The translations under genes and the position numbers were made by a program. The notes beneath the pieces are model-generated. The model was given only the letters and a program-made list of their open reading frames with translations, was not told the origin of the DNA and did not search any database. Shown here piece by piece: positions 6,145 through 22,805 of a stretch of DNA of 64,000 bases. The stretch covers positions 1 to 64,000 of the forward strand of contig JAUQWM010000040.1 of the NCBI GenBank assembly GCA_030835125.1. The letters are read 5' to 3'. How positions within the stretch are numbered: the first letter of the stretch is position 1; every line of letters begins with the position of its first letter. The stretch is from Gemmatimonadaceae bacterium. Lineage in GTDB: Bacteria; Gemmatimonadota; Gemmatimonadetes; Gemmatimonadales; Gemmatimonadaceae.

Positions 6145-6927
6145 ATGGGCGCGGGCGAGAGGATGCGACCGCGCCCGTGGGTGCTGGCCGACTGCACGCT
6201 GGAGGACGTGCGCACCTCGCGGTTCGAGGTCGCCGTCCTCCCCTGGGGCGCGACCGAGGCGCACAACCGTCACCTGCCGTACGGCACCGACACGATCGAG
6301 ACGGAATCGATCGCTGCCGCCGCCGCGGCGCTCGCGTGGGAGCGCGGGGCGCGGGTCGCGGTGCTGCCCGGCGTCCCGTTCGGCGTGAATACGGGCCAGC
6401 GTGAGGTCCCGCTCTGCCTCAACATGATGCCGTCGACTCAGGCGGCGGTCATTCGCGACCTGCTGCCGACGCTTGAGCAGCACCAGGTCCGGAAGCTCGT
6501 CATCCTCAACGGGCACGGCGGAAACGACTTCCGCCAGGTGATCCGCGAGCTGCAACCGTCGACAGCCGTGCTCCTCGTGCAGGTGAACTGGTACCAGGTG
6601 GTCCCGCCGACACCGCATTTCGATGAACCCGGCGATCACGCCGGTGAACTGGAAACGAGCGTCATGCTCCACCTGGCGCCCGGCCTCGTGCGCCCCCTGG
6701 AATCTGCCGGGCCGGGACGCTCGCGAACGCACCGGATCGCGGCGTTTCGAGAGGGTTGGGCCTGGATGCCGCGTCCCTGGGTCCAGGTCACCGATGACAC
6801 GGGGGTCGGGAACCCGGCGGCATCCACGGCAAGAAAGGGCGAGACGTACGTCGCCCTGGTGACGGAACGCATCGCCGGCCTGCTCGTCGACCTGACGGGA
6901 GCCGATCCGTCATCGCTCTACGAGTGA
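6145..6927 (+). CDS. Creatininase-family amidohydrolase
   Basis: Protein of 260 aa matching the creatininase/creatinine amidohydrolase family, metal-dependent enzymes that open cyclic or linear amides and also include mycofactocin-type and FAPy-type hydrolases. Visible motifs are GATEAHNRHLP with metal-binding Glu/His near residue 35, the Asp in GTDTIETES, the LNGHGGN loop near residue 120, and GDHAGELETS near residue 170. There is no signal peptide, so it is cytoplasmic. Its ATG comes 3 bp after the M28 stop codon, suggesting one operon. The actual substrate cannot be told from the sequence. Confidence 0.85.
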   Translation: MGAGERMRPRPWVLADCTLEDVRTSRFEVAVLPWGATEAHNRHLPYGTDTIETESIAAAAAALAWERGARVAVLPGVPFGVNTGQREVPLCLNMMPSTQAAVIRDLLPTLEQHQVRKLVILNGHGGNDFRQVIRELQPSTAVLLVQVNWYQVVPPTPHFDEPGDHAGELETSVMLHLAPGLVRPLESAGPGRSRTHRIAAFREGWAWMPRPWVQVTDDTGVGNPAASTARKGETYVALVTERIAGLLVDLTGADPSSLYE

Positions 6928-6981
6928 CAGACCCGCGGCGGAGGGAACGCCGAAAGTCGTAACTTGCGGTCTTGCCACACC

Positions 6982-7011
6982 TTGACTCTCGTGCGGAGGC
7001 GGGTCTATCAT
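6982..7011 (+). promoter_or_regulatory. Candidate sigma-70 promoter of the str operon
   Basis: TTGACT (6982-6987) and TATCAT (7006-7011) are separated by 18 bp and lie 55 bp before the rpsL ATG. This is the best -35/-10 pair seen in the window, and its place in front of rpsL fits a ribosomal protein operon promoter. Confidence 0.6.
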
Positions 7012-7065
7012 TCCTGTCTTCTCCGCCCCAGCCTGGGGCGTGCTGTTTCGTTGAGACACCACGGA

Positions 7066-7458
7066 ATGCCGACTATCAACCAGCTCGTCCGGCGTGCTCG
7101 TCGCGCCGTTGCCGCCAAGGGCAAGACGCCTGCCCTGCGGCAGAATCCGTTCCGGCGCGGCGTGTGCACGCGCGTGTACACCACGACGCCCAAGAAGCCG
7201 AACTCGGCGCTCCGCAAGGTCGCGAAGGTCCGCCTGACGAATCAGTTCGAGGTCATCGCCTACATCCCGGGCGAAGGCCACAACCTGCAGGAGCACTCCA
7301 TCGTGCTCGTTCGCGGGGGACGCGTGAAGGACCTGCCAGGCGTTCGCTATCACATCGTGCGCGGCACACTCGACGCCGCCGGCGTGTCCGGTCGCAATCG
7401 CAGCCGCTCCAAGTACGGCACCAAGAGGCCCAAGGCGGGCACCGGAGGCAAGAAGTGA
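7066..7458 (+). CDS. rpsL: 30S ribosomal protein S12 (uS12)
   Basis: S12 (130 aa) of the decoding centre, with the conserved [13 protein letters not shown] and GVRYHIVRG motifs. The lysine in PKKPNSA and the GRVKDLPG loop are the usual sites of streptomycin-resistance mutations, and both look wild type. The open frame runs further upstream, but the ATG at 7066 gives the canonical MPTINQLVR start. The stop codon overlaps the GTG of rpsG (GTGA), so translation of the two is coupled. Confidence 0.98.
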
Positions 7459-7925
7459 GTCGCCGCAAGAAGACCATTCGCCGTCCGGTGCTGCCGGACG
7501 CGCGTTATGACAGCCAGACCGTCTCCAAGTTCATCAACTCCCTCATGTTCGAGGGGAAGAAGGCCGTCGCGGAGCGCATCTTCTATGGCGCCATGGACCT
7601 GGTCGAGTCCCGCACCAGCCAGCCCGGCGTCAACGTCTTCAAGCAGGCGCTGGCGAACCTGAAGCCGGTCGTCGAGGTGAAGAGCCGCCGCGTCGGTGGC
7701 GCCACCTATCAGGTGCCCGTCGAGGTCCGCCCCGATCGTCGCACGGCCCTCGCCATGCGCTGGCTCATCTCCTTCTCGCGTGAACGCAACGAGAAGTCGA
7801 TGGCCGAGAAGCTGGCCGCCGAGGTGATCTCCGCGTCGAAGGGCGAGGGGAATGCGGTGAAGAAGAAGGAAGACACCCACCGCATGGCCGAAGCCAACAA
7901 GGCATTCGCTCACTATCGGTGGTAG
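7455..7925 (+). CDS. rpsG: 30S ribosomal protein S7 (uS7)
   Basis: S7 (156 aa), primary binder of the 3' major domain of 16S rRNA. It starts at a GTG overlapping the rpsL stop ([11 protein letters not shown]). Conserved features include the [12 protein letters not shown] helix and [11 protein letters not shown]. In most bacteria rpsG is followed directly by fusA; here fusA lies 11.5 kb downstream, beyond the RiPP cluster. A terminator-like hairpin follows the stop codon. Confidence 0.98.
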
Positions 7926-7931
7926 GACCCC

Positions 7932-7952
7932 GGGCCGCCTCACTGGCGGCCC
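7932..7952 (+). terminator. Weak terminator-like hairpin after rpsG
   Basis: GGGCCGCC and GGCGGCCC form a perfect 8-bp stem around a 5-nt loop, just after rpsG and 20 bp before the first RiPP cyclase. The stem is followed by GCGTCATATTT rather than a clean T run, so partial read-through is likely. Confidence 0.5.
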
Positions 7953-7971
7953 GCGTCATATTTGGGGGAGG

Positions 7972-9864
7972 ATGAGCGCGCTCGCTGCCGTCTTCGGCCC
8001 GGGCGCCGGCTCGGCCGGCGCCGTCCTCCCCGCGATGTTCGCCGCGATGCGGCACCGCGCCAGCGCGCCCCCCGAATCGTGCCTGACGCCCACCGCGGCG
8101 CTCGCTGCCGCACGGCACTCCTGGGAATCCGGCGTCTCCGGCTGGCACGGTCCCCTCATCGCGGAATCAGGTGACTGGGTCGTCGTCGCCGATGCCAGCC
8201 TCTATTACGTCGCAGAACTCTGCCGGAAACTCGGTGTCCAGCGCGGGCATGGCCAGCCAGAAACCGGGCAATTGCTGCTGATGGCGCTGCGGAAGTGGGA
8301 CACGCGCTTCGCCCGGCACGTCGAGGGCGATTACGCGATCGTGGCCTGGGATCGGCGGCGCGATCGCGTGCTGATGGCTCGCGATTTCGGCGGCCGGCGA
8401 AACCTCGCGTGGGCTCGCACCAGCGACGGATCCCTGGTCGTGGCGTCGTCTCCCGCAGCCGTCGTCAAGCATCCACAGGTCTCATCCGACTACGACCCGG
8501 TCTTCCTCGCCGCGTCGGCAGCGGGCATCTCGGCACATGGATACGGAACAGCGTATCGCGAGGTGTCGGTTGTTCCCGCTGGTGGGACGCTTCAGTTCGT
8601 CGACGGACGCGCGCTGCTGGTGGACCGCTGGGACCCGCCGCCCTTTGGTTCGGGATGGGAATCGTCGACTTCGGCAGCGGCCGCCGAGCAGTTGCGGTCG
8701 CTCCTTCAGGACGCGGCGCGCGAGAGGCTCGCGGACGACGCCCCGACCACGGTCTGGATGTCCGGCGGTTGGGATTCGACGGCGGTATTCGCCTCGGCAG
8801 CGGCTGCGCTCGAGAGCGAGCACTCGGGGCGCCCGCTCCTTCCGGTTTCGATGACGTATCCGGCGGATGACACCGGCAACGAGGACGCGCACATCAGGGC
8901 GGTCGCCGACCGGTGGAACGTGCCGATCCGGTGGGTCCAGGCGGACGACATCCCGTTGTTCGAGGACACCGCGAACCGCGCGCTGTTGCGAGACGATCCC
9001 ATGGCGCAGCCGTTCGAGTCGAAGATGCGCCACCTCTCGCGGGTCTCCCGGACGCTCGGGTCGCGGGTCGCGTTGGATGGTTTTGGTGGAGACCATCTCT
9101 TTCTCGTCTCGAGCGCCGCCATCACGGCGGACCACTTCTTCTCCGGGCGCTGGTCGCAACTCTATGGTGAATGGCGAGGGTGGCCTGGTTCCGCCCGCGA
9201 GTTTGCCCGGCTCAGCGTCCTTCCCCACCTGTCGCCATCAACCCGGAGATGGCTCGGATCGCTGAGGGGGAGGCCGATCGCGGGATTCTGGGATCGCTTC
9301 CTGCCACCGTGGCTGCAACCGCGCGCGGAAGTTGTGCGCATGGTGGAGCCGGAGCTGGAGCGGCAGCCGGGTGAAGGTGCCGCCGAGTACGAGTCGAGGA
9401 AGGGGATCGTATCGCCGTTCGTGGCCCGGGCGGTCTCATGGAACCACTCGTTCGCACTCGAGGAAGGCGTCCTGGTCCGCGCCCCGCTTTTTGACACCCG
9501 CGTCATTGCGTTCGCCTGCGGGCGGCCGCTCAGCGATCGAGGGGGCGGGGGTGACAGCAAACGAATCCTCCGGCATGCCATGAAGGGCCTGCTCCCGGAC
9601 TCGGTGCTGGCTCCCAGGCCGCGAAAGACCGGGACGCCAGCAGGCTACTTCCGTCGCCAGATGCAGGCGCACCTCATGGACGAAGTGGCGGCCGTGTTTG
9701 GCGGGTCGCCCGGCGAACTGGAGCGCCTCGGAATCCTGGATGCCGGGGTCTTCCGACAGGCGGTCGAGCAGTACGCCGGTTCCGGGGAGCACGCCTTGGG
9801 AGCCATGCTCCAGCTCACCCTGGAAGTCGAGCGATGGCTTGCCGCCCGGTCAGCGCGAGGGTAA
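7972..9864 (+). CDS. Lasso-peptide cyclase-type asparagine synthetase homologue (C protein 1)
   Basis: Protein of 630 aa with the layout of asparagine synthetase B. A class-II amidotransferase-like N-terminal domain (about 1-200) lacks the Cys2 needed for glutamine hydrolysis, and an ATP-pyrophosphatase domain has the PP-loop SGGWDS at 264-269. In lasso-peptide clusters such proteins (McjC type) adenylate an Asp/Glu side chain of the precursor and close the macrolactam. It is followed after 86 bp by precursor A1 and is paralogous to the second cyclase at 10670. The ATG sits directly on a GGGGGAGG run, so the ribosome binding site is unusually close. It starts 46 bp after rpsG with no promoter visible between. 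Confidence 0.88.
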   Translation: MSALAAVFGPGAGSAGAVLPAMFAAMRHRASAPPESCLTPTAALAAARHSWESGVSGWHGPLIAESGDWVVVADASLYYVAELCRKLGVQRGHGQPETGQLLLMALRKWDTRFARHVEGDYAIVAWDRRRDRVLMARDFGGRRNLAWARTSDGSLVVASSPAAVVKHPQVSSDYDPVFLAASAAGISAHGYGTAYREVSVVPAGGTLQFVDGRALLVDRWDPPPFGSGWESSTSAAAAEQLRSLLQDAARERLADDAPTTVWMSGGWDSTAVFASAAAALESEHSGRPLLPVSMTYPADDTGNEDAHIRAVADRWNVPIRWVQADDIPLFEDTANRALLRDDPMAQPFESKMRHLSRVSRTLGSRVALDGFGGDHLFLVSSAAITADHFFSGRWSQLYGEWRGWPGSAREFARLSVLPHLSPSTRRWLGSLRGRPIAGFWDRFLPPWLQPRAEVVRMVEPELERQPGEGAAEYESRKGIVSPFVARAVSWNHSFALEEGVLVRAPLFDTRVIAFACGRPLSDRGGGGDSKRILRHAMKGLLPDSVLAPRPRKTGTPAGYFRRQMQAHLMDEVAAVFGGSPGELERLGILDAGVFRQAVEQYAGSGEHALGAMLQLTLEVERWLAARSARG

Positions 9865-9950
9865 TGTAGTCACCCCCGAACGCACATCATGCTGTTCGCG
9901 TGATGGTATCGGTCTTGCAAGGAACACCTCCGAACCCCCAGGGAGGCATC

Positions 9951-10112
9951 ATGTACGAATCCCCAAAACTCGTCCGGTACGGTCAGTTCCGTGACCTGAC
10001 GCTCCAGTCTTCGGGCTGTCTGCTCCAGAAGCCTTGGACTGGGAAGGATCAACCGACGTTCGACTCGTTCTTCCCGAACGGTGTGAACGACGGCTGCCCC
10101 GCTCGCTCGTAA
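9951..10112 (+). CDS. Lasso-type RiPP precursor A1 (core lacks a normal ring acceptor)
   Basis: Precursor of 53 aa. The leader has the lasso recognition motif YxxPxL (YESPKL, 2-7), then RYGQFRDLT with Thr17 expected at position -2. Cutting after residue 18 gives a 35-residue core beginning QSSGCLLQKPW. Core positions 7-9 are Leu, Gln and Lys, so the Asp/Glu needed for an isopeptide ring is missing; the first acid is Asp33 (core 15). Cys23 and Cys49 could form a disulfide. The last residue is Ser, the type of residue phosphorylated in paeninodin. GGGAGG at 9941-9946 fixes the ATG. Identity as a precursor is well supported; the final structure is not. Confidence 0.85.
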   Translation: MYESPKLVRYGQFRDLTLQSSGCLLQKPWTGKDQPTFDSFFPNGVNDGCPARS

Positions 10113-10233
10113 GTAGTTCAGAACCAACGCAGTAGGCAGTTTCAGAAGTTGTACCAGCCGAGGCGCCGTCCGGGGCGCCCAAGGCAAGGGTCCGTCAGAA
10201 TCGAGCTAGCGAGAGCTTGGCTCAGTTCAGTTG

Positions 10234-10274
10234 GCCGCCACACCCAGAGTGTTGGGTTGTGGCGGCATTTTGTT
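10234..10274 (+). terminator. Rho-independent terminator after precursor A1
   Basis: GCCGCCACA (10234-10242) pairs with TGTGGCGGC (10258-10266), reinforced by CCC/GGG inside with one bulged T, and is followed by ATTTTGTT. It lies 121 bp after the A1 stop and 91 bp before the next gene, so it can stop most transcripts after the precursor while letting some through. Confidence 0.75.
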
Positions 10275-10365
10275 GCAACACTGCGCCACACTCGTCGCCT
10301 TTCGTTGCAGACGGCCACAACTGTTGGGTCCGATGCGGGACCCCCAAGCGAATGGGAGTTAGCCG

Positions 10366-10644
10366 TTGAGCCTGCCGAGCCCAAAATCGACAGTGGTCTT
10401 CCGGGAGGTGCCTGAGGGGGCCATCCTGTTCTGCACCGCAACCGAGACCTACTTCAGCCTCAACGCGGTCGGTGTCCAGGTTTGGCGCCTGCTCCATCCG
10501 ACATGTGTCTCGATAGACCAGGTCGTGGAGCGGCTTTCCGCAGAACACCCCGACGCCACCGCGGACGTCCTGCGTTCGGACATCGCCGAATTGCTGCGGG
10601 CCCTGCTGGAGAGCGGACTGGTAGAGCTCCCCAAGGCCGCGTAG
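10366..10644 (+). CDS. PqqD-like RiPP recognition protein (B1, copy a)
   Basis: Protein of 92 aa with the PqqD/RRE fold: beta-hairpin region FREVPEGAILFCTATETYFSLN, then a winged-helix part with GVQVWRLL and a C-terminal helix ending in LLESGLVEL. In lasso clusters the split B1 protein binds the YxxPxL leader and presents it to the B2 protease. The start is a TTG with GGGAG (10354-10358) 7 bp upstream. It lies 25 bp before the second cyclase. A second copy is encoded at 15316; the two share the FK/FREV/LPEG-x-LF and ETY/VYF features. Confidence 0.88.
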   Translation: MSLPSPKSTVVFREVPEGAILFCTATETYFSLNAVGVQVWRLLHPTCVSIDQVVERLSAEHPDATADVLRSDIAELLRALLESGLVELPKAA

Positions 10645-10669
10645 CCCCGACCGCGAAAGACCCGTTCGC

Positions 10670-12565
10670 GTGGCCGGCTTCGTTTTCGCCCTCGAGCCGT
10701 CGTCGACGAGGCGGACCCGCGCGGTTCACGCTGGGCTGGCCGCCATGGCCGATCGCGGCGACCAGCACACGATTCGGCTCCAGGGTCACGTGGCCGCCGC
10801 CGGGCTCACAACCCTGGATTGGCAGGAGCAGCTCAACGGGGGCTCGACCGGTCATTGTCGCGAGCTGGTCGTGGTTGCCGACGCGGTCCTCTACTACCGC
10901 ACGGAGCTCGTGGCGGACCTCACCCGATTCGGCTGCCCACCGCGGAGTGAGTCGACGGGCGACCTGATTGCCGCAGCCGTCCGGTCATGGGGTGACGATG
11001 CGCCGCTCCACCTCGAAGGCGACTACGCCTACGTCGCGTTCGACACGACGACAGGGCGTGGATACGCGGCGCGGGACCCGATCGGAAGCCGACCTCTCTA
11101 CTTCGTTCACACCACCGTCGGGTTGGCGATTGCCTCGGCACCCAGCGCGCTCGTCGCGGCCGGTTTCGCATCTTCGGCGCTCAACAACGCGTGGCTGGCC
11201 GAACTCTGCGCGGGCTTCGTGAATGTCGGCTCCGAGACCGCATACCGGCAGGTGGCGGCTCTTCGACAGGGAGAGCGACTGCGATTCGGTGTTGGGGTGA
11301 CGACGGCCGTTGATCAGTGGTGGTCGCCGCCGGCATTCACCGAAGATGGAACGTCGCGCGTGGCATTCGCCGATGCCGCGGTCGAGTTGCGTGAGTTGAT
11401 CGTGTCCGCGGTGCGAGAACGGCTCGATCCTCAACGTGCGACCTTTGTATCGCTCAGCGGCGGTCGCGACTCCTCCGCGGTCTACGCCGCTGGACGGCGG
11501 CTGGCCGGGGATCGTGTTCGGGCAATCTCGTTGTCGTATCCGGTCGGCGATCCCGGGCGCGAGGATGAGACGATCCGGGAGATCCTCGAGATGTGCGGGG
11601 GCCAGCCGCGGTGGATCGATACCGACCAGCTGCCGCTGTTTCGACTACAGGGGACGGGCACGATCCGGCCCGATGCGTTCACGCACCCATATGAATCCCC
11701 GACGGCAGCCATCGCCGACAGCGCCGGGGCGGAAGGAGGCCGGATCGTCCTGAATGGACTTGGCGGCGATACCCTGTTTCACAGCGAGCATTCGTTCCTC
11801 GCGGACCTCGTCTTTGCTGGTCGCTGGGTGGATCTTCGCCGTGAGTGGAGGCTCCAGGGAGGTGGCTTTGACCCCGCGATGTTCTTTCGCTGGGGCCTCC
11901 TGCCAAGGCTTGGTCCGGTCGCGCGCGATTTCGTCGCCGCGGCGCGAGGCGGTCGTCGCCTGCAGGATGTCTGGGATCCCCCGGTTCCGGGTTGGATCCG
12001 TGGCGGCGACGACACGCACGCGACCATCAGGGAGCGCGCCTGGCGGGAGCCGGTTCGTGAACTCCGTGCCGATGGGGCCGGCGACCGTGAGCGCCGCCTC
12101 ATGGTTCTGGGGCCGTTCGCCGGGCGGGTGGTGCCGGAGTACAGCCGCGTTTCCCTGTCGAGAGGGATAGAGCAGCGATCGCCGCTCTACGACTCGAGGA
12201 TCATCTCGTTCGCGGCCACCCGGCCTCGTGCCGAGCGGCAGCGAGGAGGGGACTACAAGCGTCTCCTGCGCGCCGCAATGGAGCCGTGGCTGCCTGTGTC
12301 AGTGACGGGTCCGCGCCTCAATCCGACAGGTTTTTCGGGTGGCTATTTTCGTCGTTTGGCGATGGCGGAGTTGCCGCAACTGATTGGTACACAGCGGGAT
12401 AAGCTGATTGCGGATGAGGCTGGCCTCATTGTTGCCAAGAAATACCGCGCCGAACTGCATCGCTTTACCGAATCGGGCGAGCATGGGCAGTTGCCGGCTC
12501 TGGTGTTCACGGCGTTGGTCGAGTCCTGGCTGCGCTCGCAGTCAGCGGATTCCGACAGACGCTAG
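10670..12565 (+). CDS. Lasso-peptide cyclase-type asparagine synthetase homologue (C protein 2)
   Basis: Paralogue of the cyclase at 7972 (631 aa), with the same layout: an N-terminal amidotransferase-like domain beginning MAGFVFALEP with no Cys2, and the ATP-binding PP-loop SGGRDS at 263-268. Later parts such as LNGLGGDTLFHSEH, the GxxEQRSPLYDSR motif and GGDYKRLLRAAM match the synthetase domain. It is predicted to activate an Asp side chain of precursor A2, whose gene follows after 69 bp. It starts at a GTG, 25 bp after B1a. The 3' end is somewhat less GC-rich than its neighbours. Confidence 0.88.
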   Translation: MAGFVFALEPSSTRRTRAVHAGLAAMADRGDQHTIRLQGHVAAAGLTTLDWQEQLNGGSTGHCRELVVVADAVLYYRTELVADLTRFGCPPRSESTGDLIAAAVRSWGDDAPLHLEGDYAYVAFDTTTGRGYAARDPIGSRPLYFVHTTVGLAIASAPSALVAAGFASSALNNAWLAELCAGFVNVGSETAYRQVAALRQGERLRFGVGVTTAVDQWWSPPAFTEDGTSRVAFADAAVELRELIVSAVRERLDPQRATFVSLSGGRDSSAVYAAGRRLAGDRVRAISLSYPVGDPGREDETIREILEMCGGQPRWIDTDQLPLFRLQGTGTIRPDAFTHPYESPTAAIADSAGAEGGRIVLNGLGGDTLFHSEHSFLADLVFAGRWVDLRREWRLQGGGFDPAMFFRWGLLPRLGPVARDFVAAARGGRRLQDVWDPPVPGWIRGGDDTHATIRERAWREPVRELRADGAGDRERRLMVLGPFAGRVVPEYSRVSLSRGIEQRSPLYDSRIISFAATRPRAERQRGGDYKRLLRAAMEPWLPVSVTGPRLNPTGFSGGYFRRLAMAELPQLIGTQRDKLIADEAGLIVAKKYRAELHRFTESGEHGQLPALVFTALVESWLRSQSADSDRR

Positions 12566-12634
12566 CACGTCAGATCACATTCTTGCGGCGCAGCGCCGCG
12601 CATACCTGCTTTGGGATGCAGGGGGGAGGAAGGG

Positions 12635-12805
12635 ATGTACGAGAGTCCGAAGCTGTTGCGCTACGGCGGTTTCCGGGATCTGACCCAAGCTGGGTGGAGC
12701 GGGGCGGACGATCACCTGTTCTTCCAGAACATCTCGGGCTGCAACCTCCTGGGGTGTCCGCCGGGCCAGCCGGGTGGTGGGCCGACCACGGGCGGATCGC
12801 GCTAA
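12635..12805 (+). CDS. Lasso-peptide precursor A2
   Basis: Precursor of 56 aa behind a strong GGGGAGGAAGGG ribosome binding site. The leader, with YESPKL and RYGGFRDLT, differs from A1 at only two of its first 17 residues (8 and 12). Thr17 at -2 and Gln18 at -1 give a core starting AGWSGADDHLFF, so Ala1 can be joined to Asp8 (or Asp7) in an 8- or 7-residue macrolactam. The 38-residue core is long for a lasso peptide, with Cys at core positions 18 and 23, a Gly/Pro/Thr-rich tail and a Ser-Arg end. Ring chemistry is inferred from family rules. Confidence 0.88.
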   Translation: MYESPKLLRYGGFRDLTQAGWSGADDHLFFQNISGCNLLGCPPGQPGGGPTTGGSR

Positions 12806-12836
12806 ACGGTCAAGGTCGCAGGTTGAATCGCTCGAG

Positions 12837-12868
12837 ATGCCGGCCCTGAAAAGGCCGGCATTTTCGTT
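12837..12868 (+). terminator. Rho-independent terminator after precursor A2
   Basis: A perfect 9-bp stem (ATGCCGGCC 12837-12845, GGCCGGCAT 12853-12861) with a 7-nt loop is followed by TTTCGTT. It lies 31 bp after the A2 stop, before the kinase gene, as at precursor A1. Confidence 0.8.
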
Positions 12869-12953
12869 GCGCAGGCCCAACAGAATCGTGTGCCGGGAGC
12901 ACACGATTCGGTGGCCACCGGGTCGTGATTCGTCACCTGGGGCGGGGACCGTC

Positions 12954-13910
12954 ATGGGCACCACCGAGTACCGAGAATACCGTGTCTTCGGTGGCGTGCT
13001 CCGGACAACGCTGCTGTTGCCGGAACTACACGAATCTCCCGATACCTCGAGCCCGACCTGGACGCTTGAGGTCCACGAAGGGGGTGCCGCTCCGGGCCTC
13101 GATGCCGCGCTGGTTGCATCCGAGGAGTTGGCCGGTGACGTCACCATCACCCTCCACAGGACCGTGGGTGGGGCGTCGCGTCTCTCTTACTCGGACACCG
13201 GCGCATTCGACATTTCGCCCGACGGTGCCACGATCGACTGGTACCGCCTGCCGGCGGCGCCTGACGACCTGGCGCGAACCGACATCCTCGGCCGGGTGCT
13301 CGCGCTGGCGGCGCACGCCAGCGGCACCGTGATGCTGCACGCAAGCGGCGTCGCCATCGGGGACCGCGTGATCGGGTTTCTGGCACCCAAGTTCTTCGGC
13401 AAGTCAACGCTGGCGTGCGCGATGACCGATGCCGGCGCCCGGCTGGTGACCGACGACGCGCTGGCGCTGCGGCTGCGCCGGGGAGTCGAATGCGCGCCTG
13501 GGGTGCCTGCTCTCCGGTTGCGGCGTGAGGCCGCCGCCCACCTGCGAGGCGCGTCCGGGCTGGAACTGTCCCACGACGATTGGGACTGGAGGCACCTCGA
13601 GCGGCGTGATGTGAGCGAAGTCGCCAACGGTTGGCTCCCGGTCGACGCCTTGTACGTGATCCAGCCGGTCGAGTCCGCGGGCATGGCGGCGGCGGTTGTC
13701 CGTGAAGCGCAGGCGCCGCTTCAGGCAGCGCTCGCGCTGGTCAGGTTCGCGAAGCTGGGCGGGCTGCTGGCAGGTGCGCTGGCTGTGGACTACCTCGGTC
13801 GCGCCGCTGACATCGCCGGCCGGGTTCCGGTGTACGCGCTCTACACCGCCCGGGACCTGGGGCGGCTGGGTGAGGTGGCTGCGGGGATTACCCAATGGCA
13901 TCGCGATTGA
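12954..13910 (+). CDS. HPr kinase-like protein, putative lasso-peptide kinase 1
   Basis: Protein of 318 aa resembling the HPr kinase/phosphorylase-like enzymes of lasso clusters. A P-loop variant APKFFGKST lies at 144-152, followed by a TDD motif (RLVTDDALALR) that resembles the catalytic acid region. The N-terminus YREYRVFGGVLRTT matches kinase 2 (YSVFGGILRSE), and both end in GRAADIA...VPVYAL. In paeninodin biosynthesis such a kinase phosphorylates the C-terminal Ser of the precursor. The frame is open upstream, but the ATG at 12954 is chosen because it aligns with kinase 2 and lies after the terminator. Confidence 0.8.
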   Translation: MGTTEYREYRVFGGVLRTTLLLPELHESPDTSSPTWTLEVHEGGAAPGLDAALVASEELAGDVTITLHRTVGGASRLSYSDTGAFDISPDGATIDWYRLPAAPDDLARTDILGRVLALAAHASGTVMLHASGVAIGDRVIGFLAPKFFGKSTLACAMTDAGARLVTDDALALRLRRGVECAPGVPALRLRREAAAHLRGASGLELSHDDWDWRHLERRDVSEVANGWLPVDALYVIQPVESAGMAAAVVREAQAPLQAALALVRFAKLGGLLAGALAVDYLGRAADIAGRVPVYALYTARDLGRLGEVAAGITQWHRD

Positions 13911-13966
13911 CGCACGGCAGCACTAGGTTGACGGGAATTCCGACGGCGTGACCGACTAATCCAGAC

Positions 13967-15148
13967 GTGAGCACTGCCCTGCGACTCGAGTCCTATGGGA
14001 ACCCGGAAGCGGCCCTGCTGCTGGCGGCGAGTCGTGGCGATCCATCTCGCGAGTCGGTGCGCCGCCTGATGGCGGGCCGGCTGGACTGGACGCAGCTCAC
14101 GCGCCTGGCGGTCGAGTCGCACGCGACCCCGGGGCTCTGGGAGGTCGTTTCGGCGTTCCCCGACCTGCCCCGTGAGGCGGAGGCGCTGCAGTCACTCGCG
14201 GTCGTCAACGACTTCAGGCGTTACCACATTCGCGCGCTGTTGGCGCGCGTGGTGGGCGAGCTGCGCGCGGCCGGCATCGAGGTCCTGGCGATCAAGGGTG
14301 CGGCGCTGCTGGCGGGAGGCGTGGCAAAGGCGGCGGGACGGACCATGTCCGACATCGACCTGCTGGTGGTGACCGGGTCGCCCGAACGGGCCTGGCAGGT
14401 GTGTCGCGAACACGGCTGGACGCTGGTTGACGAGGCGTGGACCGAGGCGTTGTACCGCGAGCATCATCACCTCCCGCCGCTGCTCGATCCGGATGGCGTC
14501 CAGATCGGCCTCGAGCTCCACCGCACCCTGTTGACCGGTGTCGATCGCCTCGGCCTGGACATCGAAGCGATCCTGGGGCGGTCGCGAACGGTGAACGTCG
14601 GCGAGGTCGCCGTGCTGGTGCCGTCCGTGGAAGACCTGCTGCTCCACGTCTGCCTGCACTTCGCGTGGTCCAACAAGCTGCAGCGCGGAACGTGGCGCGC
14701 GTTCGCGGACGTTCACGCCATCGTATCCGATCCCCGCTTTGACTGGGACCGGTTCATCCAGGTGTCCGGTTCGCGCCTCTCGCGGCAGTGCTGCTACTGG
14801 ACCCTGCGCCTGGGATCGGCCGTGGCCGACCTGAGTGTGCCGGACGGCGTGTTGCGACGGCTGGATCCGTCGTCAGGCGGCCGGTTCGCCGGCCTCCTGG
14901 AGCGACACCTGGTCAGCCAGATCATGGACCCGGCCGCGGGGACTGCGGTGTCCGAACGCGTCCGGCGCTGGTTCTGGTTCGCGGCGATGCAGGAGCGCGC
15001 GACATCGGACGAAGCGAGCCAGTTATGGAACGAAGGCGCGGTCCTGGTTCCCGGGGAGGGCGATCCGGTCGAGCATCCGGCGCGCGGTCCCCTGACCGCC
15101 GTCATCAGCACGTGTGGATACCTCGCCCGACTCCTCACGCGCGGGTAG
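13967..15148 (+). CDS. Nucleotidyltransferase-family protein (NTP_transf_5 type)
   Basis: Protein of 393 aa with features of the nucleotidyltransferase family found in many lasso-peptide clusters: IKGAALL near residue 109, then RTMSDIDLLV with the metal-binding pair Asp129 and Asp131. It starts at a GTG 56 bp after kinase 1. In the pseudomycoidin cluster a related protein acts after the kinase and is linked to further tail modification; here I infer tailoring of a phosphorylated lasso tail, with the donor unknown. No membrane segment is seen. Confidence 0.75.
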   Translation: MSTALRLESYGNPEAALLLAASRGDPSRESVRRLMAGRLDWTQLTRLAVESHATPGLWEVVSAFPDLPREAEALQSLAVVNDFRRYHIRALLARVVGELRAAGIEVLAIKGAALLAGGVAKAAGRTMSDIDLLVVTGSPERAWQVCREHGWTLVDEAWTEALYREHHHLPPLLDPDGVQIGLELHRTLLTGVDRLGLDIEAILGRSRTVNVGEVAVLVPSVEDLLLHVCLHFAWSNKLQRGTWRAFADVHAIVSDPRFDWDRFIQVSGSRLSRQCCYWTLRLGSAVADLSVPDGVLRRLDPSSGGRFAGLLERHLVSQIMDPAAGTAVSERVRRWFWFAAMQERATSDEASQLWNEGAVLVPGEGDPVEHPARGPLTAVISTCGYLARLLTRG

Positions 15149-15315
15149 GGTGCGCATGTCACCGGCATTGCCACCGCGCATCTTCTCAAGCGACGGGCCG
15201 GGAGTACGTTTCTCGCGGGCCGCACCGTCAGCGTCGCGCTGGTGGCGTGCGTTCCTTCCAGGTTCCCATTCATGCGGTACGGGGCGGGGCATCATCCTCT
15301 CCCACAGTCGACGCC

Positions 15316-15636
15316 ATGGCACGACACGAAGACAGGGCCCTGCCGACACGCGTGGCGGCCGCGGTGTTCAAGCGACTGCCGGAGGGTGGCGTGCTGTTCT
15401 CCACCGAGACCGAGGTCTACTTCGGTGTCGGCGAAGTTGGCGCGCGGATCTGGGAACTCCTGCCCCCCGCGGCGCACACGGTCGACGAAATGGTCGCCAT
15501 CCTGTCGGCGAAGTATCATGACGTCACCGCCGATCAGATCCGCGCCGACGTCGAGCGGTTCCTCGGCGAACTCCTCGACAACGGCCTGGTCGCGTACGAT
15601 CCGGCGCATCCGTCGGGAGGTCCAGCGATATCGTAG
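15316..15636 (+). CDS. PqqD-like RiPP recognition protein (B1, copy b)
   Basis: Second leader-binding B1 protein (106 aa): FKRLPEGGVLFSTETEVYFGV, GARIWELL, then helices ending in LLDNGLVAY. It is a little longer than copy a at both ends. It lies directly before the only B2 protease, the usual split-B order. The 167 bp in front of it (15149-15315) were read for a third precursor; no YxxPxL leader was found there. The ATG at 15316 is the first that gives the domain start; no strong ribosome binding site is visible. Confidence 0.85.
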   Translation: MARHEDRALPTRVAAAVFKRLPEGGVLFSTETEVYFGVGEVGARIWELLPPAAHTVDEMVAILSAKYHDVTADQIRADVERFLGELLDNGLVAYDPAHPSGGPAIS

Positions 15637-15664
15637 GGCCGGGCCGAAGCTGCGGTCACTGCGC

Positions 15665-16072
15665 GTGCGCGACTGGAAGGATCTCGTGCATGCCCAGGCG
15701 GCTCTCGTCCGCGCCCATCGTGACATGCGCTCGCGCCCGACCGGCGAGATGGTGCGCGACGAACCCGACCGTCCCGATCCACCGGTGCTCGATCGGATCG
15801 AGGACGCGCGACGCGTTGCCCTCGCGGTGAACCGGGCGGCCGCGTTTGGCATCTTCAGGCCGAAGTGCCTCGTGCGTTCCATGGCCCTGCGGCGGCTGCT
15901 CAATGCGGCCGGCATCGAGGGGGCGCACGTCCGGGTCGGTGTGTACCTCGCCCACGGGCAGTTCATCGCGCACGCCTGGGTGGAGTACGCCGGCCAGGTG
16001 GTCGGGGACGATCCCGCCTTCGTGGCGCGTTACGTGCCCATGACCGGACTCCAGGTCGCGGAACTCGAATGA
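15665..16072 (+). CDS. Lasso-peptide B2 leader protease (transglutaminase-like)
   Basis: Cysteine protease of the transglutaminase-like B2 family (about 135 aa from this start) that cuts the leader after the -2 Thr region. The triad is visible: Cys68 (PKCLVRSMAL), His103 (AHAWVEY) and Asp115 (VGDDPAF). The opening VRDWKDLVHAQAALVRA matches the usual N-terminal helix. The start is uncertain: GTG 15665 is chosen, GTG 15686 is an alternative, and the frame is open further upstream. It is the only B2 in the cluster, so it should serve both precursors. Its TGA overlaps the ATG of kinase 2. Confidence 0.85.
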   Translation: MRDWKDLVHAQAALVRAHRDMRSRPTGEMVRDEPDRPDPPVLDRIEDARRVALAVNRAAAFGIFRPKCLVRSMALRRLLNAAGIEGAHVRVGVYLAHGQFIAHAWVEYAGQVVGDDPAFVARYVPMTGLQVAELE

Positions 16073-17055
16073 CCGAACGAGCCTACAGCGTCTTTGGCGG
16101 GATCCTTCGCTCCGAACTCCCGATGGCGGAGCTTCCACCCGGAACGGCGCCGGCGACTCCGGAATGGCGGCTCCGCGTGGTTGCGGGCGCCGCCGATCAC
16201 GCTCCGGGCGAGTTGCTGGGCAGCGATACCGTATTCGGTGAGACGCTGGTCCGCGGCTACCGGCGTCCCGACGGATACAGCCTGGTCTTCGATGACACCG
16301 GACGGTTCGATGTGTCGGCCGATGGCGCCAGCATCACCTGGCACCAGCCGGGTCCCGAAGTGATCGAGGCGGCGCAGGCCGACGTCACCAGCCGCGTGCT
16401 CGCGCTCGCGCTCCACGCGGCTGGCGTCTTTTCCCTCCACGCCAGCGCCGTGTCGATTGACGGTGCCGGAGTGGCGTTCATGGCACCGAAGCATCATGGC
16501 AAGTCGACGCTCTGCAGTGCGCTGGTGCTCGCCGGCGCGCGTGCGATGAGCGACGACACGGTTCCTGTGCGACTCGGTACCACGCCATTCCTCGCCCCCG
16601 GGCTCCCGCGACTGCGGCTCTGGAGCGACTCGGCTTCACGGCTGTTCGGCATGGAGGACGCGAACCCGGCACCCTCGCCGGCCGTTGGCCCCCCGCCCCC
16701 GCGGAAACACCTCGTGAATGAGCTCGCACCATCGCAGGTGGAGACGACGCCGGTACCGTTCCGCGCCGCCTATCTCCTCAATCCGGTGAAGGAGCTCCCG
16801 GACGGCGAGTCGGTGGTGCGAGAGCGGCTCGACACGGTCATTGCCACGATGACATTGATGGCGCACGCGAAGCTCGGGCCGGTCCTCACCGGCACCGAGT
16901 CGACCGTCATGCTCGGCCGCGCGGCCGACATCGCGCGGGTCGTGCCGGTCTACGCGTTGCACGTCGTGCGCGACCTCGATCGCCTCGACGCGGTAGCACG
17001 CCAGGTGCGTGCGTGGCATGCGGCCGGGGCGTCCGTGGAGGAACCCGGCACGTGA
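16069..17055 (+). CDS. HPr kinase-like protein, putative lasso-peptide kinase 2
   Basis: Paralogue of kinase 1 (328 aa), with P-loop APKHHGKST at 139-147 and the acid motif AMSDDTVPVR. Predicted to use ATP to phosphorylate a precursor tail, most plausibly Ser53 of A1 or Ser55 of A2. Start ATGA overlaps the B2 stop, and the stop overlaps the GTG of the ABC ATPase, so B2, kinase 2 and exporter are translationally coupled. Two kinases for two precursors may mean one each, but nothing in the sequence proves the pairing. Confidence 0.8.
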   Translation: MTERAYSVFGGILRSELPMAELPPGTAPATPEWRLRVVAGAADHAPGELLGSDTVFGETLVRGYRRPDGYSLVFDDTGRFDVSADGASITWHQPGPEVIEAAQADVTSRVLALALHAAGVFSLHASAVSIDGAGVAFMAPKHHGKSTLCSALVLAGARAMSDDTVPVRLGTTPFLAPGLPRLRLWSDSASRLFGMEDANPAPSPAVGPPPPRKHLVNELAPSQVETTPVPFRAAYLLNPVKELPDGESVVRERLDTVIATMTLMAHAKLGPVLTGTESTVMLGRAADIARVVPVYALHVVRDLDRLDAVARQVRAWHAAGASVEEPGT

Positions 17056-18107
17056 CGGCCACGCAGGCCGGCGGCGACGTGGTGACGGCCGCGTCCCATG
17101 CCAGCGGTGTCGTCGTCCGCTGTCGCGGACTCACCAAGCGGTTCCCGGCACGCCGCGGGCTGAAGGAGGTCGTCCTGCACCCCTTCGACGGCACGACCAC
17201 GACGGTGGTGTCGGACGTGTCGTTCGAGGCGAATGCGGGCGAGTTCCTTGGCCTGCTGGGACCGAACGGCGCCGGCAAGACGACATTGCTCAAGATGCTG
17301 TCCACGCTGATCCTGCCTGACGAGGGAACCGCCGAGGTGGACGGACTGGACGTCGTGCGGGACGCGGCTGCCGTGCGCGCCCTCGTCTCGCCGTGTCTCG
17401 CGATGGAGCGCAGCCTCTATTTCCGTCTCACGGCCCGCCAGAACCTCGAGGTCTTCGCCGACCTGCAGGGCCTGGGGGGAAGGGAACGCGGGGCACGGAT
17501 CGAGGAGGTGCTGGCGGCCGTTTCGCTCTCGGACACGGGCGAGAAGCTGGTGGGACAATTCTCGAGCGGGATGCTCCAGCGCCTGCTCATCGCGCGGGCA
17601 CTGTTGACGCGTCCGCGGCTCCTGCTGCTCGACGAGCCCACCCGCAGCCTCGATCCCATCTCGGCGCGCGAGTTCAGGGCGTTCATGCGGGAGGAACTCG
17701 CGCGGCAGCGCGGCTGCGCGGTGATCCTGGCGACGCACAATGCCGAAGAAGCGTTCGAGTTGTGCGACCGGGTGGGAGTACTCGACCATGGCCGGTTGCT
17801 CGCGAGTGGGGTCGCCACCCGGTTGTCTCGCGAATTCCTCGGCGTGCGATACCGCCTGGCGACCAGCCATCCCGACCACCCTGCCTTCGCGCAGCTGCAG
17901 GCGCAGGGAGTCACGGTCGTGTCCAGGACGCGCCGGGATGAGGACGGGTGGCATGACGTCATGCTCATGATGCAGGTCGACCACGATCCCGCCGGCGTCC
18001 TGGCGTTGCTGGCCGCGGCCGGCGTCCCGATCGCCGCGTTCGAGCCCGTGCGGGCCTCCCTTGCGGATCTCATCGAGGGTGTGGTGAAGCGGGAGGTAGT
18101 CACCTGA
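17052..18107 (+). CDS. ABC transporter ATP-binding protein (RiPP export/immunity)
   Basis: ATPase of 351 aa. Walker A GPNGAGKTT is at 70-78, a signature variant FSSGM at 170-174, Walker B LLLLDEPT with Asp194-Glu195, and an H-loop ATHN. The fold resembles the ABC-2 exporter class (CcmA/DrrA type) with a C-terminal extension of about 90 residues. It starts at a GTG overlapping the kinase 2 stop, and its TGA overlaps the ATG of the permease (TGATG). Likely exports the mature RiPP or protects the producer. Confidence 0.9.
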   Translation: MTATQAGGDVVTAASHASGVVVRCRGLTKRFPARRGLKEVVLHPFDGTTTTVVSDVSFEANAGEFLGLLGPNGAGKTTLLKMLSTLILPDEGTAEVDGLDVVRDAAAVRALVSPCLAMERSLYFRLTARQNLEVFADLQGLGGRERGARIEEVLAAVSLSDTGEKLVGQFSSGMLQRLLIARALLTRPRLLLLDEPTRSLDPISAREFRAFMREELARQRGCAVILATHNAEEAFELCDRVGVLDHGRLLASGVATRLSREFLGVRYRLATSHPDHPAFAQLQAQGVTVVSRTRRDEDGWHDVMLMMQVDHDPAGVLALLAAAGVPIAAFEPVRASLADLIEGVVKREVVT

Positions 18108-18910
18108 TGGCCGGCGCCGTCGGGGCCCTGACCCGGGCATCGTGGTACCAGGCCCGGAGCTACCGGCTTTCACTGCTGATGCAGGCGGGCGGAATCGTCC
18201 TGACCGTGGTGCCGATCTATTTCATCGCCCACGCGCTGCAGCCGCTGGCTGCCGGGGCGATCGCCGGCGAGTCGGAGCAGTACTTCTCCTTCGTGCTCAC
18301 CGGGTCGATCGCCCTCATGTTCATCACGACGGCGATGTCGGGCCTGCAGGGGAGCATCGGGGCGGGGATCTCGACCGGCTATTTCGAGGCGCTGCTCATG
18401 TCCCGGGCCCCGCTGCCATCGATTCTCGCCGGCCTGACGTCCTACGCGATGCTGCTGACGACCGTGCGGGCCCTCGTCATGGTGGTCGCTGGCTGGCTCA
18501 TGGGCGCGAAGATCGTGGCAGGCGGGATCATCCCGGCGCTGCTGATCCTGGCCCTGCTGGTGGCCGCGCACTGGGGGATCGGGCTCGTGGCGGCTGCGCT
18601 CGTGGTCGCTTTCCGGACGTCAGGGCCGTTGTTGCAGGGCGTATCGACGCTCTCGGTCTTCTTCGGTGGGGTGTACTTCCCGATTTCCTCGATTCCCTCG
18701 TGGCTGGGGGTGATCGCAAAGCTCACCCCGCTGGCGTACGGACTCCGACCACTCCGGCAGGTGCTTCTCCAGGGTGAAAGCGTACTTTCGGTAGCCGGGG
18801 ACGTATCCATCCTGGCCCTGATGACGGTCGTCCTGCTGTCCGTGGGCGCTCTGGCGATGCGGGCGGCCCTCCGCTATGCCAGGAAGGCGGGGACCCTGGG
18901 GCTGTACTAG
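18107..18910 (+). CDS. ABC-2 type transporter permease
   Basis: Integral membrane protein of 267 aa with about six hydrophobic segments, for example around residues 20-45, 60-80, 105-130, 140-165, 175-195 and 230-255. It matches the ABC-2 permease family and pairs with the ATPase before it through a one-base overlap. It is the last gene of the RiPP cluster; no terminator with a T run follows, and the next gene is fusA after 492 bp. Confidence 0.88.
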   Translation: MAGAVGALTRASWYQARSYRLSLLMQAGGIVLTVVPIYFIAHALQPLAAGAIAGESEQYFSFVLTGSIALMFITTAMSGLQGSIGAGISTGYFEALLMSRAPLPSILAGLTSYAMLLTTVRALVMVVAGWLMGAKIVAGGIIPALLILALLVAAHWGIGLVAAALVVAFRTSGPLLQGVSTLSVFFGGVYFPISSIPSWLGVIAKLTPLAYGLRPLRQVLLQGESVLSVAGDVSILALMTVVLLSVGALAMRAALRYARKAGTLGLY

Positions 18911-19402
18911 GGCGGGTCGCCGAGTCCGGTCGCGGTCGAGCGCGTATCCGGCGCCAAAGCGAGAGCCCGGATCGAGCATCAGCCAGCAGTTGCCGTATCT
19001 CGTTCTGGCTTGTTGACTTTCGGGGTCCGCAGATCCAGATTATGCGGCTCCTGATAGTCACCGTCTCACTCTGAGGGCGACTGACGGGAACACCCGTGCC
19101 GACTGGCTGCGAGTCGGCTCCTATGGGACCGCGATGTCCGCGGGGATTGCACCTGATCCGGGAACCGCCGACCGGCGCGCTCCTTCCCGAAAAGCAACGC
19201 AGGACAACTTGACGCCGGAGCGGTTTCCGGCGCGCCTTGGGTCCCTCCCGTGCTGCAGAGGCGGGAACACCCGGCGAGAGCGGATGGATACCGGTCCCTG
19301 CCTCAAGGGACGCCCGGTCCACCCGCGTTTGTATTTCCAGCGGCACCAGACATCAGGCACCAGGCATCACGCGGCGCGGCCGCAGACGGATAAACGACAC
19401 GA
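18911..19402 (+). other. Long gene-free leader region before fusA
   Basis: No gene is seen in these 492 bp. A weak promoter candidate is TTGACT (19013-19018) with GATTAT (19038-19043), spaced 19 bp. Three small hairpins follow: GCCGACT/AGTCGGC (19098-19118), GCCGGA/TCCGGC (19214-19231) and GTCCCT/AGGGAC (19294-19311). A heptad repeat lies at 19343-19370. The region may supply a separate promoter and a structured leader for fusA and tuf, needed because the RiPP cluster separates them from rpsL-rpsG. Confidence 0.45.
19343..19370. repeat. Heptad repeat, GCATCAG type (degenerate)
   Basis: Four 7-bp units GCACCAG, ACATCAG, GCACCAG and GCATCAC, 32 bp before the fusA ATG. The word family is the same as in the long arrays at 46924 and 63076. 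Confidence 0.6.
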
Positions 19403-21523
19403 ATGCCAAGAACCACACCGCTCGAGCACTATCGGAATATCGGCATCATGGCCCACATCGATGCCGGGAAGACGACCACGACCGAGCGCATCCTCTACTA
19501 CACGGGCAAGTCCCACAAGATGGGCGAGGTCCATGATGGCGCCGCCACCATGGACTGGATGGAGCAGGAGCAGGAACGCGGCATCACGATCACCTCGGCC
19601 GCGACCACGTGCTTCTGGCGCCGCCATGGCGCCAGCGCCGAAGCCGGCGACGGTCCGGAGTACCGGATCAACATCATCGACACGCCCGGCCACGTGGACT
19701 TCACCGTCGAGGTGGAGCGGTCCCTGCGGGTGCTCGATGGCGCGGTTGCGCTGCTTGATTCCGTGGCCGGCGTCGAGCCGCAAACCGAGACCGTGTGGCG
19801 CCAGGCGGACCGGTATCGCGTACCGCGGATGATCTTCGCGAACAAGATGGACCGCGTCGGCGCCAACTTCGACCGGTGCATGACGATGATCCGCGAGCGC
19901 CTGTCGCGCCGCGCCTTTCCGCTGCAGCTGCCGGTCGGTTCCGGGGAGCTCTTCACGGGCCACATCGACGTCATCGAGCGCAAGGAGTACATCTTCCACG
20001 ACGAGACGCTCGGCAAGACGTTCGACATCGTCGAGGTGTCGCCGGAGTTCCGGGATCGCGTGGAGGAAGCCCGCCACGAGCTGATCGAGGCCGCGGTCGA
20101 GCACGACGAGGTCCTGCTCGAGAAGTACCTCGCCGGCCAGGAGCTGACCGTCGAGGAGATCCGCCACGCCGTCCGCAAGGCGACCGTCGCGATGCAGTTC
20201 GTGCCGGTGCTCTGCGGGGCGTCCTTCAAGAACAAGGGCGTGCAGGCGCTGCTGGATGCGGTGCTCGACTACATGCCCGCGCCGATCGACGTGCCAGCTA
20301 TTGAGGGGCACCTGCCGCACCACGACGAAACGTTCGAGCAGCGGAGCGTCCAGGACGACGCGCCGTTCGCCGCGCTGGCGTTCAAGATCGCCACCGACCC
20401 GTTCGTCGGGAAGCTGACCTTCTTCCGCGTCTACTCGGGCATCCTCGCGTCAGGCAGCTACGTCTACAACTCGACCAAGGACAAGCGCGAGCGCGTCGGC
20501 CGGCTGCTGCAGATGCACGCCAACAAGCGCGAGGAGATCGCCGAGGTGCGGGCCGGGGACATCGCCGCCGCCATCGGGCTCAAGGACACCCGCACGGGGG
20601 ACACGCTGTGCGACGATGAGGCGCCGATCATCCTCGAGGCGATGAAGTTCCCGGCGCCGGTCATCGACGTGGCGATCGAGCCCAAGACGAAGGCCGACCA
20701 GGACAAGCTGGGCATCGCGCTGAACAAGCTGGCCGAGGAAGACCCGACGTTCCGCGTCCACACCGACGTCGAGACGGGCCAGACGATCATTTCCGGCATG
20801 GGCGAGCTGCACCTGGAGATCATCGTCGACCGCATGATGCGCGAGTTCAAGGTCGACGCCAACGTCGGCCGCCCGCAGGTCGCCTATCGGGAGACGATCC
20901 GCAAGCGCGTCGAGAAGATCGAGGGGAAGTTCATCCGGCAGTCCGGCGGCAAGGGCCAGTACGGCCACGTCGTCATCAACCTCGCCCCGATGGAGCCCGG
21001 GCAGGGCTTCCATTTCGAGGACAAGGTGGTCGGCGGCACCGTGCCCCGCGAGTACATCGGGCCGGTGGAGCAGGGCATCAAGGAAGCGCTGGAAAACGGC
21101 ATCCTCGCCGGGTATCCCATGGTCGACATCAAGGTCGAGCTGACCGACGGGTCGTACCACGAGGTGGACTCGAGCGAGATGGCGTTCAAGATCGCGGGCT
21201 CGATGGCCTTCAAGGAGGGCGCGCAGCGCGCGCATCCGGTGATCCTCGAGCCCATGATGAAGGTCGAGGTGGTCGTCCCCGAGCAGTACATGGGCGACGT
21301 GCTCGGCGACCTGTCGGCGCGCCGCGGCAAGATCGGCGGCATGATGCAGCGCGGCGAGGCACAGGTGATCGCGTCCACGGTGCCGCTGGGCGAGATGTTC
21401 GGGTACTCGACCAAGCTCCGCTCGATGAGCCAGGGCCGGGCGGTGTACTCGATGGAGTTTTCGCATTACGACGAAGTCCCGAAGAGCAAGGCCGAAGAGA
21501 TCGTGAGCAAGGCGAAGGCGTAG
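19403..21523 (+). CDS. fusA: Translation elongation factor G
   Basis: EF-G (706 aa), the translocation and ribosome-recycling GTPase. G1 is AHIDAGKTT, switch [10 protein letters not shown]3 DTPGH, and G4 NKMD. Domain IV contains [10 protein letters not shown] short extra loop (about residues 74-85, [12 protein letters not shown]) sits between switch I and G3. No Shine-Dalgarno sequence precedes the ATG. Normally next to rpsG, it is displaced from it here by the RiPP cluster. Confidence 0.98.

Positions 21524-21602: not shown

Positions 21603-22805
<1,203 letters not shown>

Follow-up and report, generated by a model that had tools for sequence, protein, structure and literature searches.

Phosphorylated and phosphoglycosylated lasso peptides are represented by paeninodin and pseudomycoidin from Firmicutes, whose clusters encode an HPr-kinase homologue and a precursor with a C-terminal Ser, together with a nucleotidyltransferase in the pseudomycoidin type; the available part of that account does not mention a link to the str operon (PMC8498205). 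In another phylum, the bsf cluster of Bradymonas sediminis FA350 combines one precursor and one cyclase with a discrete RRE, a B2 peptidase, an ABC transporter, an HPr-kinase-like kinase that acts on Ser3 of the core and a nucleotidyltransferase, and reportedly has ribosomal protein genes at one of its borders (PMC10368454). The str operon of E. coli has the order rpsL-rpsG-fusA-tuf (PMC3150367, PMC2965389). Integration hot spots, in which constant core flanks enclose variable content, have been surveyed within species (PMC5635113). A regulatory RNA candidate ahead of fusA is also known, which resembles the leader described below in its position.

The locus described here lies in a stretch of 64,000 nucleotides from a bacterium of the Gemmatimonadaceae, a soil-dwelling family (the window; contig JAUQWM010000040.1 of assembly GCA_030835125.1). 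It has the str genes of E. coli in the same order and on the same strand, but a predicted terminator, cargo, promoter and leader split them into rpsL-rpsG and fusA-tuf units. The cargo, enclosed by rpsG (ending at 7925) and fusA (starting at 19403), is an 11.5-kb lasso-type RiPP cluster on the forward strand (Table 1). An earlier note on this DNA had placed rpsL, rpsG, a RiPP locus, fusA and tuf at these coordinates on one strand; rechecking found the coordinates and strands correct and the locus richer than described, with a doubled gene set. In comparison with the known hot spots, the flanks here are ribosomal and translation genes, and our comparison runs between genera.

Gene content and proposed biosynthesis

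The 12 cluster genes span 7972–18910, all on the + strand, in the order asnB1, precursor A, pqqD1, asnB2, precursor B, kinA, nucleotidyltransferase, pqqD2, B2, kinB, ABC ATPase and permease. Unlike the paeninodin and pseudomycoidin clusters, and unlike bsf with its single precursor and cyclase, the window has two each of precursors, cyclases, RREs and HPr-kinase-like kinases, while the B2 peptidase, the nucleotidyltransferase and the ABC exporter are single-copy. The enzymology is nevertheless of the kind known from paeninodin, pseudomycoidin and bsf.

Both precursors have a YxxPxL leader with Thr at −2, where bsf has Ile (PMC10368454), and both score above the cut-off of the lasso leader model NF033521. 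The core of precursor B is canonical (Thr at −2, Ala1, Asp7/Asp8); that of precursor A lacks the usual ring acceptor, an Asp or Glu at positions 7–9, despite the cyclase gene in front of it. Comparably unusual cores (TLQ..., GDDLIP...) occur in several relatives of its clade. Precursor A ends in RS, with terminal Ser, and precursor B in SR, with penultimate Ser; most relatives end in RS, GS or TS. RRE and B2 proteins are both present, supported by matches to PqqD in Pfam and TbiB1 in the PDB and by a B2 score well over its model's cut-off. For pqqD1, an alternative start at 10393 is possible. The top NCBIfam match of both asnB1 and asnB2 is the lasso cyclase model (2.5e-41 and 3.1e-44), far under its 525-bit cut-off, and the two proteins have an intact ATP motif SGGxDS (SGGWDS in asnB1) and no N-terminal Cys. 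The kinases share the invariant residues H124, G144-K145-S146 and D162-D163, of which the P-loop and the Asp-Asp pair are common to HPr kinases, and match HPrK in the PDB; the motif (His, Gly-Lys-Ser, Asp-Asp) agrees with that given for BsfK (PMC10368454).

By analogy with characterized members of these families, both RREs would bind the YxxPxL leaders, B2 would cleave after Thr-x, and AsnB1 and AsnB2 would close the ring, in precursor B between Ala1 and Asp7/8. The kinases would phosphorylate the C-terminal Ser, the nucleotidyltransferase would decorate the phosphate and the ABC pair would export the product.

Table 1. Features of the rpsL–tuf region, in positions of the window.
Feature	Position	Strand	Support or remark
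rpsL promoter, TTGACT-18-TATCAT	6982..7011	+	best sigma70 match in 6900-19500
rpsL (S12), left flank	7066..7458	+	97.6% identity with same-genus G001
rpsG (S7), left flank, GTG start	7455..7925	+	Pfam Ribosomal_S7
terminator-like hairpin 3' of rpsG, CGTCATATTT	7931..7953	+	9 G-C pairs, weak T tail
asnB1, lasso-cyclase-like asparagine synthase	7972..9864	+	Pfam Asn_synthase; NF033535 E 2.5e-41, below cut-off
precursor A, MYESPKLVRYGQFRDLT-LQSSGCLLQKPWTGKDQPTFDSFFPNGVNDGCPARS	9951..10112	+	NF033521 24.3 bits, cut-off 19
terminator-like hairpin 3' of precursor A	10225..10275	+	sequence and fold, -26.7 kcal/mol
pqqD1, discrete RRE (B1)	10366..10644	+	Pfam PqqD 9.6e-13; NF033530 2.4e-10, below cut-off
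asnB2, second lasso-cyclase-like protein	10670..12565	+	
precursor B, MYESPKLLRYGGFRDLTQ-AGWSGADD...	12635..12805	+	NF033521 25.3 bits, cut-off 19
terminator-like hairpin 3' of precursor B	12830..12870	+	sequence and fold, -22.2 kcal/mol
kinA, HPr-kinase-like peptide kinase (GKST, DD)	12954..13910	+	TIGR04352 1.7e-7, below cut-off
nucleotidyltransferase (PF14907)	13967..15148	+	1.3e-32
pqqD2, second discrete RRE	15352..15636	+	PDB TbiB1 4.7e-5
B2 leader peptidase (Transglut_core3)	15665..16072	+	Pfam 1.2e-17; NF033537 57.6 bits, cut-off 33
kinB, HPr-kinase-like peptide kinase	16069..17055	+	
ABC transporter ATPase	17052..18107	+	2.6e-30
ABC-2 permease, final gene of the cluster	18107..18910	+	1e-15
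fusA promoter, TTGACT-17-CAGATT	19013..19041	+	family conservation
conserved fusA leader RNA, terminator-like hairpin at 3' end	19203..19333	+	
fusA (EF-G), right flank	19403..21523	+	
tuf	21603-22805	+	rpsJ next

The rpsG–fusA gap across the family

We looked for fusA and rpsG in 179 family genomes and compared the intervals between them, a check proposed in the earlier note. The 88 complete gaps range from 331 bp to 28 kb, with a median of 5.6 kb and 17 gaps below 800 bp; a distance of 41 kb separates the flanks in G090. In 22 genomes, from nine genera, the gap contains a lasso-type cluster; a single contig carries both flanks in 12 of them, and the other 10 have one flank. All scored lasso genes are co-directional with rpsG (131/131). 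The remaining cargo consists of unrelated genes in both orientations (166 with rpsG, 126 against); in the non-lasso cargo of L021, L028 and L030, families c14–c16 are common to G015 and G022, and c10 is also found in G024. The gap holds 20 of the family's 40 strong lasso-kinase loci; the other half are elsewhere or unplaced, and the gap is therefore not required. The commonest order in the gap is pqqD-B2-asnB-precursor-kinase-ATPase-permease-nucleotidyltransferase-fusA, so the version in the window is rearranged as well as doubled. Beyond the order, 14 genomes representing other families of the class gave 16 loci, none of them linked to str, and no paper dealing with str-located lasso clusters turned up in the open-licence literature. 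The reported border of bsf with ribosomal protein genes may be a parallel to the str location.

Several variants of the arrangement were seen. A related lasso cluster lies immediately upstream of rpsL in G059 of the sister family (L042). Four str loci of lasso type have no cyclase gene: L013 (G004), L116 (G134), L041 (G028) and L112 (G133), the last seen in part as its contig ends inside the kinase. The precursors of G004, G134 and G028 have no Asp or Glu at core positions 7–9. The g4 genomes gave no strong cyclase match, whereas G028 has one at a different locus. These str loci possibly represent cyclase-less derivatives of lasso peptides. In G026 and G184 the cluster is split: the str locus (L032 and L117) holds pqqD, B2, transporter and nucleotidyltransferase, and the precursor, cyclase and kinase are at a separate locus (L143 and L118).

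Two probable transcription units and a conserved fusA leader

A strong hairpin lies within 120 bases 3' of rpsG at 87 of 98 family loci, 77 of them with a T-tract, compared with 15 hairpins and four T-tracts in shuffled controls. That of the window, described as weak in the earlier note, has nine G-C pairs and a predicted energy of −21 kcal/mol, at the place occupied by clear terminators in relatives, but with a degraded T-run; G001, of the same genus, has the same hairpin with a better T-run. On the other side of the gap, the promoter motif TTGAC[AT]-N16-18-Y[AT]NNNT is found upstream of fusA in 80 of 96 family genomes (0.9 expected).

The structured fusA leader that had been noted in the window proved to be real and strongly conserved. 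It is about 130 nt long, lies downstream of the promoter and ends in a hairpin followed by T's. Over 36 sequences it has 37 invariant columns, and compensatory changes on both sides at nine of 25 predicted pairs point to covarying helices. Nearly all genomes have one copy, which adjoins fusA wherever both were mapped, and the window's genome has one match above chance; further copies include L018:567-697 and L037:9737-9878. Of 390 genomes sampled from the phylum, those with the leader number about 125 in the family and about 26 in the sister family, plus a single one elsewhere. It is less strongly conserved in the sister family, where the rpsG–fusA gap is about 200 bp and empty. An Rfam search returned chance matches only, below gathering scores, and no report of the leader was found in the open-licence literature. 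Unlike the known candidate ahead of fusA, it is nearly confined, within the sampled phylum, to the family of the window and its sister family and has no Rfam match, and we regard it as a candidate new cis-regulatory RNA.

Given the rpsG terminator hairpin and fusA's own promoter and conserved leader, the site appears to be a junction of transcription units, and rpsL-rpsG and fusA-tuf are best read as two units with the cluster between them. Promoter and terminator calls are consensus-based here, and by such prediction the region does not form a single unit, which would have neither a terminator between rpsG and fusA nor a fusA promoter. A natural break of str is seen in G018 (L024), where rpsL-rpsG and fusA-tuf are on opposite strands about 12 kb apart. 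The earlier reading of a cluster inside the str operon stands in part: a lasso-type cluster between rpsG and fusA with a separate structured fusA leader is upheld, and proves to be a conserved arrangement, and the placement within one operon is unsupported in view of the family-wide hairpin, the conserved fusA promoter and leader, and the strand split of G018.

Expression, descent and retention

How the cluster is transcribed is the weakest step of the proposed mechanism. A relaxed −35/−10 scan of the gaps between the window's cluster genes gave no promoter, and no consensus promoter was recognized before the cluster, nor upstream of it in those relatives that have the shortest spacing, in line with the earlier remark that none is visible before the first gene. 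In the window, asnB1 has a good ribosome-binding site and starts 46 bp after rpsG, a spacing that makes some read-through from rpsL plausible, and read-through of the degraded terminator is possible. In relatives, 89–385 bp or over 1 kb separates rpsG from the first lasso gene, which usually follows a terminator and sometimes an opposing gene. Growth-coupled expression from rpsL would be least implausible in the window itself, with its short spacing, degraded T-run and lack of another recognizable promoter. We suggest that transcription would start mainly at a promoter outside the consensus, with some read-through past the 7931–7953 hairpin, and that the hairpins 3' of each precursor would yield more precursor than enzyme transcript. 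The absence of a consensus promoter would also be expected under rpsL read-through, and in that respect counts against our preferred explanation.

A tree of rpsL, rpsG and fusA fragments recovers a five-genus clade (g1, g11, g26, g28, g29) whose 11 genomes all carry the cluster or a relic of it, one member being a one-gene relic. In the transporter tree, g1/g11/g26/g28/g29 and g21/g32/g34 make up the two main groups of str copies, and g4 and G183 stand apart; this tree implies at least two changes (best value, five), and the species tree needs four. In G001, the one further genome sampled from the genus of the window, the conserved flanks enclose a lone pqqD with 67% identity. DNA comparison identifies this gene as pqqD2, the sole remnant in a deletion footprint from which all other cluster genes are gone, so that the genus ancestor probably had the cluster. 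A single ancestral insertion is unsupported, considering the two main str groups, the two outliers and the four changes on the species tree. Long retention by vertical descent, together with more than one arrival, agrees with the pattern, and comparison of the genomes shows the cluster to have been held in the gap through speciation in at least two clades, always co-directional.

The explanation that we consider probable is that the gap is a permissive junction throughout the family, at which a doubled cluster of phosphorylated-lasso type is maintained between str halves that are transcribed separately. An alternative, raised in the earlier note, is that the cluster extends the rpsL-rpsG operon, so that the rpsL promoter ties peptide output to ribosome synthesis. 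No strong consensus promoter other than this one lies in 6900–19500, and the closeness and ribosome-binding site of asnB1, the degraded T-run and the co-directional clusters of all genomes agree with such an extension. It is nonetheless unlikely in view of the GC hairpin at the family's terminator position, the T-run retained in G001, the more distant and usually terminator-shielded lasso genes of relatives, and the hairpins 3' of each precursor, which would stop a long transcript. Constant orientation could reflect selection for read-through; as independent origins are few (the trees need four to five changes), descent alone may explain it, and we do not accept co-directionality as proof of co-transcription.

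Concerning the place of the cluster, a neutral-passenger explanation agrees with the permissive junction that we favour, and differs on why the cluster is retained: the junction would tolerate insertions, and the cluster would be kept by chance and moved between genera by flank recombination. Many unrelated cargoes do share the gap, the str-located clusters are not one clade, lasso clusters occur elsewhere too, and hot spots flanked by core genes are already known (PMC5635113). We consider this less likely than not, since one gap contains half of the family's strong lasso-kinase loci, every member of the five-genus clade keeps the cluster or a relic, and the sister-family cluster lies right upstream of rpsL. 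Quite unlikely, in our estimation, is a functional position, kept long because leaky rpsL-rpsG termination links the amount of peptide made to the rate of growth, or because translation is the target of the peptide, with some genera having drifted to cyclase-less derivatives. An assembly error at the cluster edges, which the earlier note had named as a possible refutation, would have joined a RiPP contig wrongly to the str region, and the genome is indeed a draft of 73 contigs. The recurrence of the cluster in 22 genomes argues against such an error, and the same order and flanks are found on long independent contigs (386 kb in G011, 622 kb in G029 and 584 kb in G181); we therefore reject it as having a negligible probability.

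The permissive junction that we favour means that a textbook ribosomal operon would be open across a whole bacterial family, with natural-product genes at the opening through many genera. A tie between the synthesis of an antibiotic-type peptide and that of the ribosome becomes a directly testable question. The comparison of the flanks also revealed a fusA leader RNA that is conserved but absent from Rfam, a finding of possible relevance to the regulation of translation.
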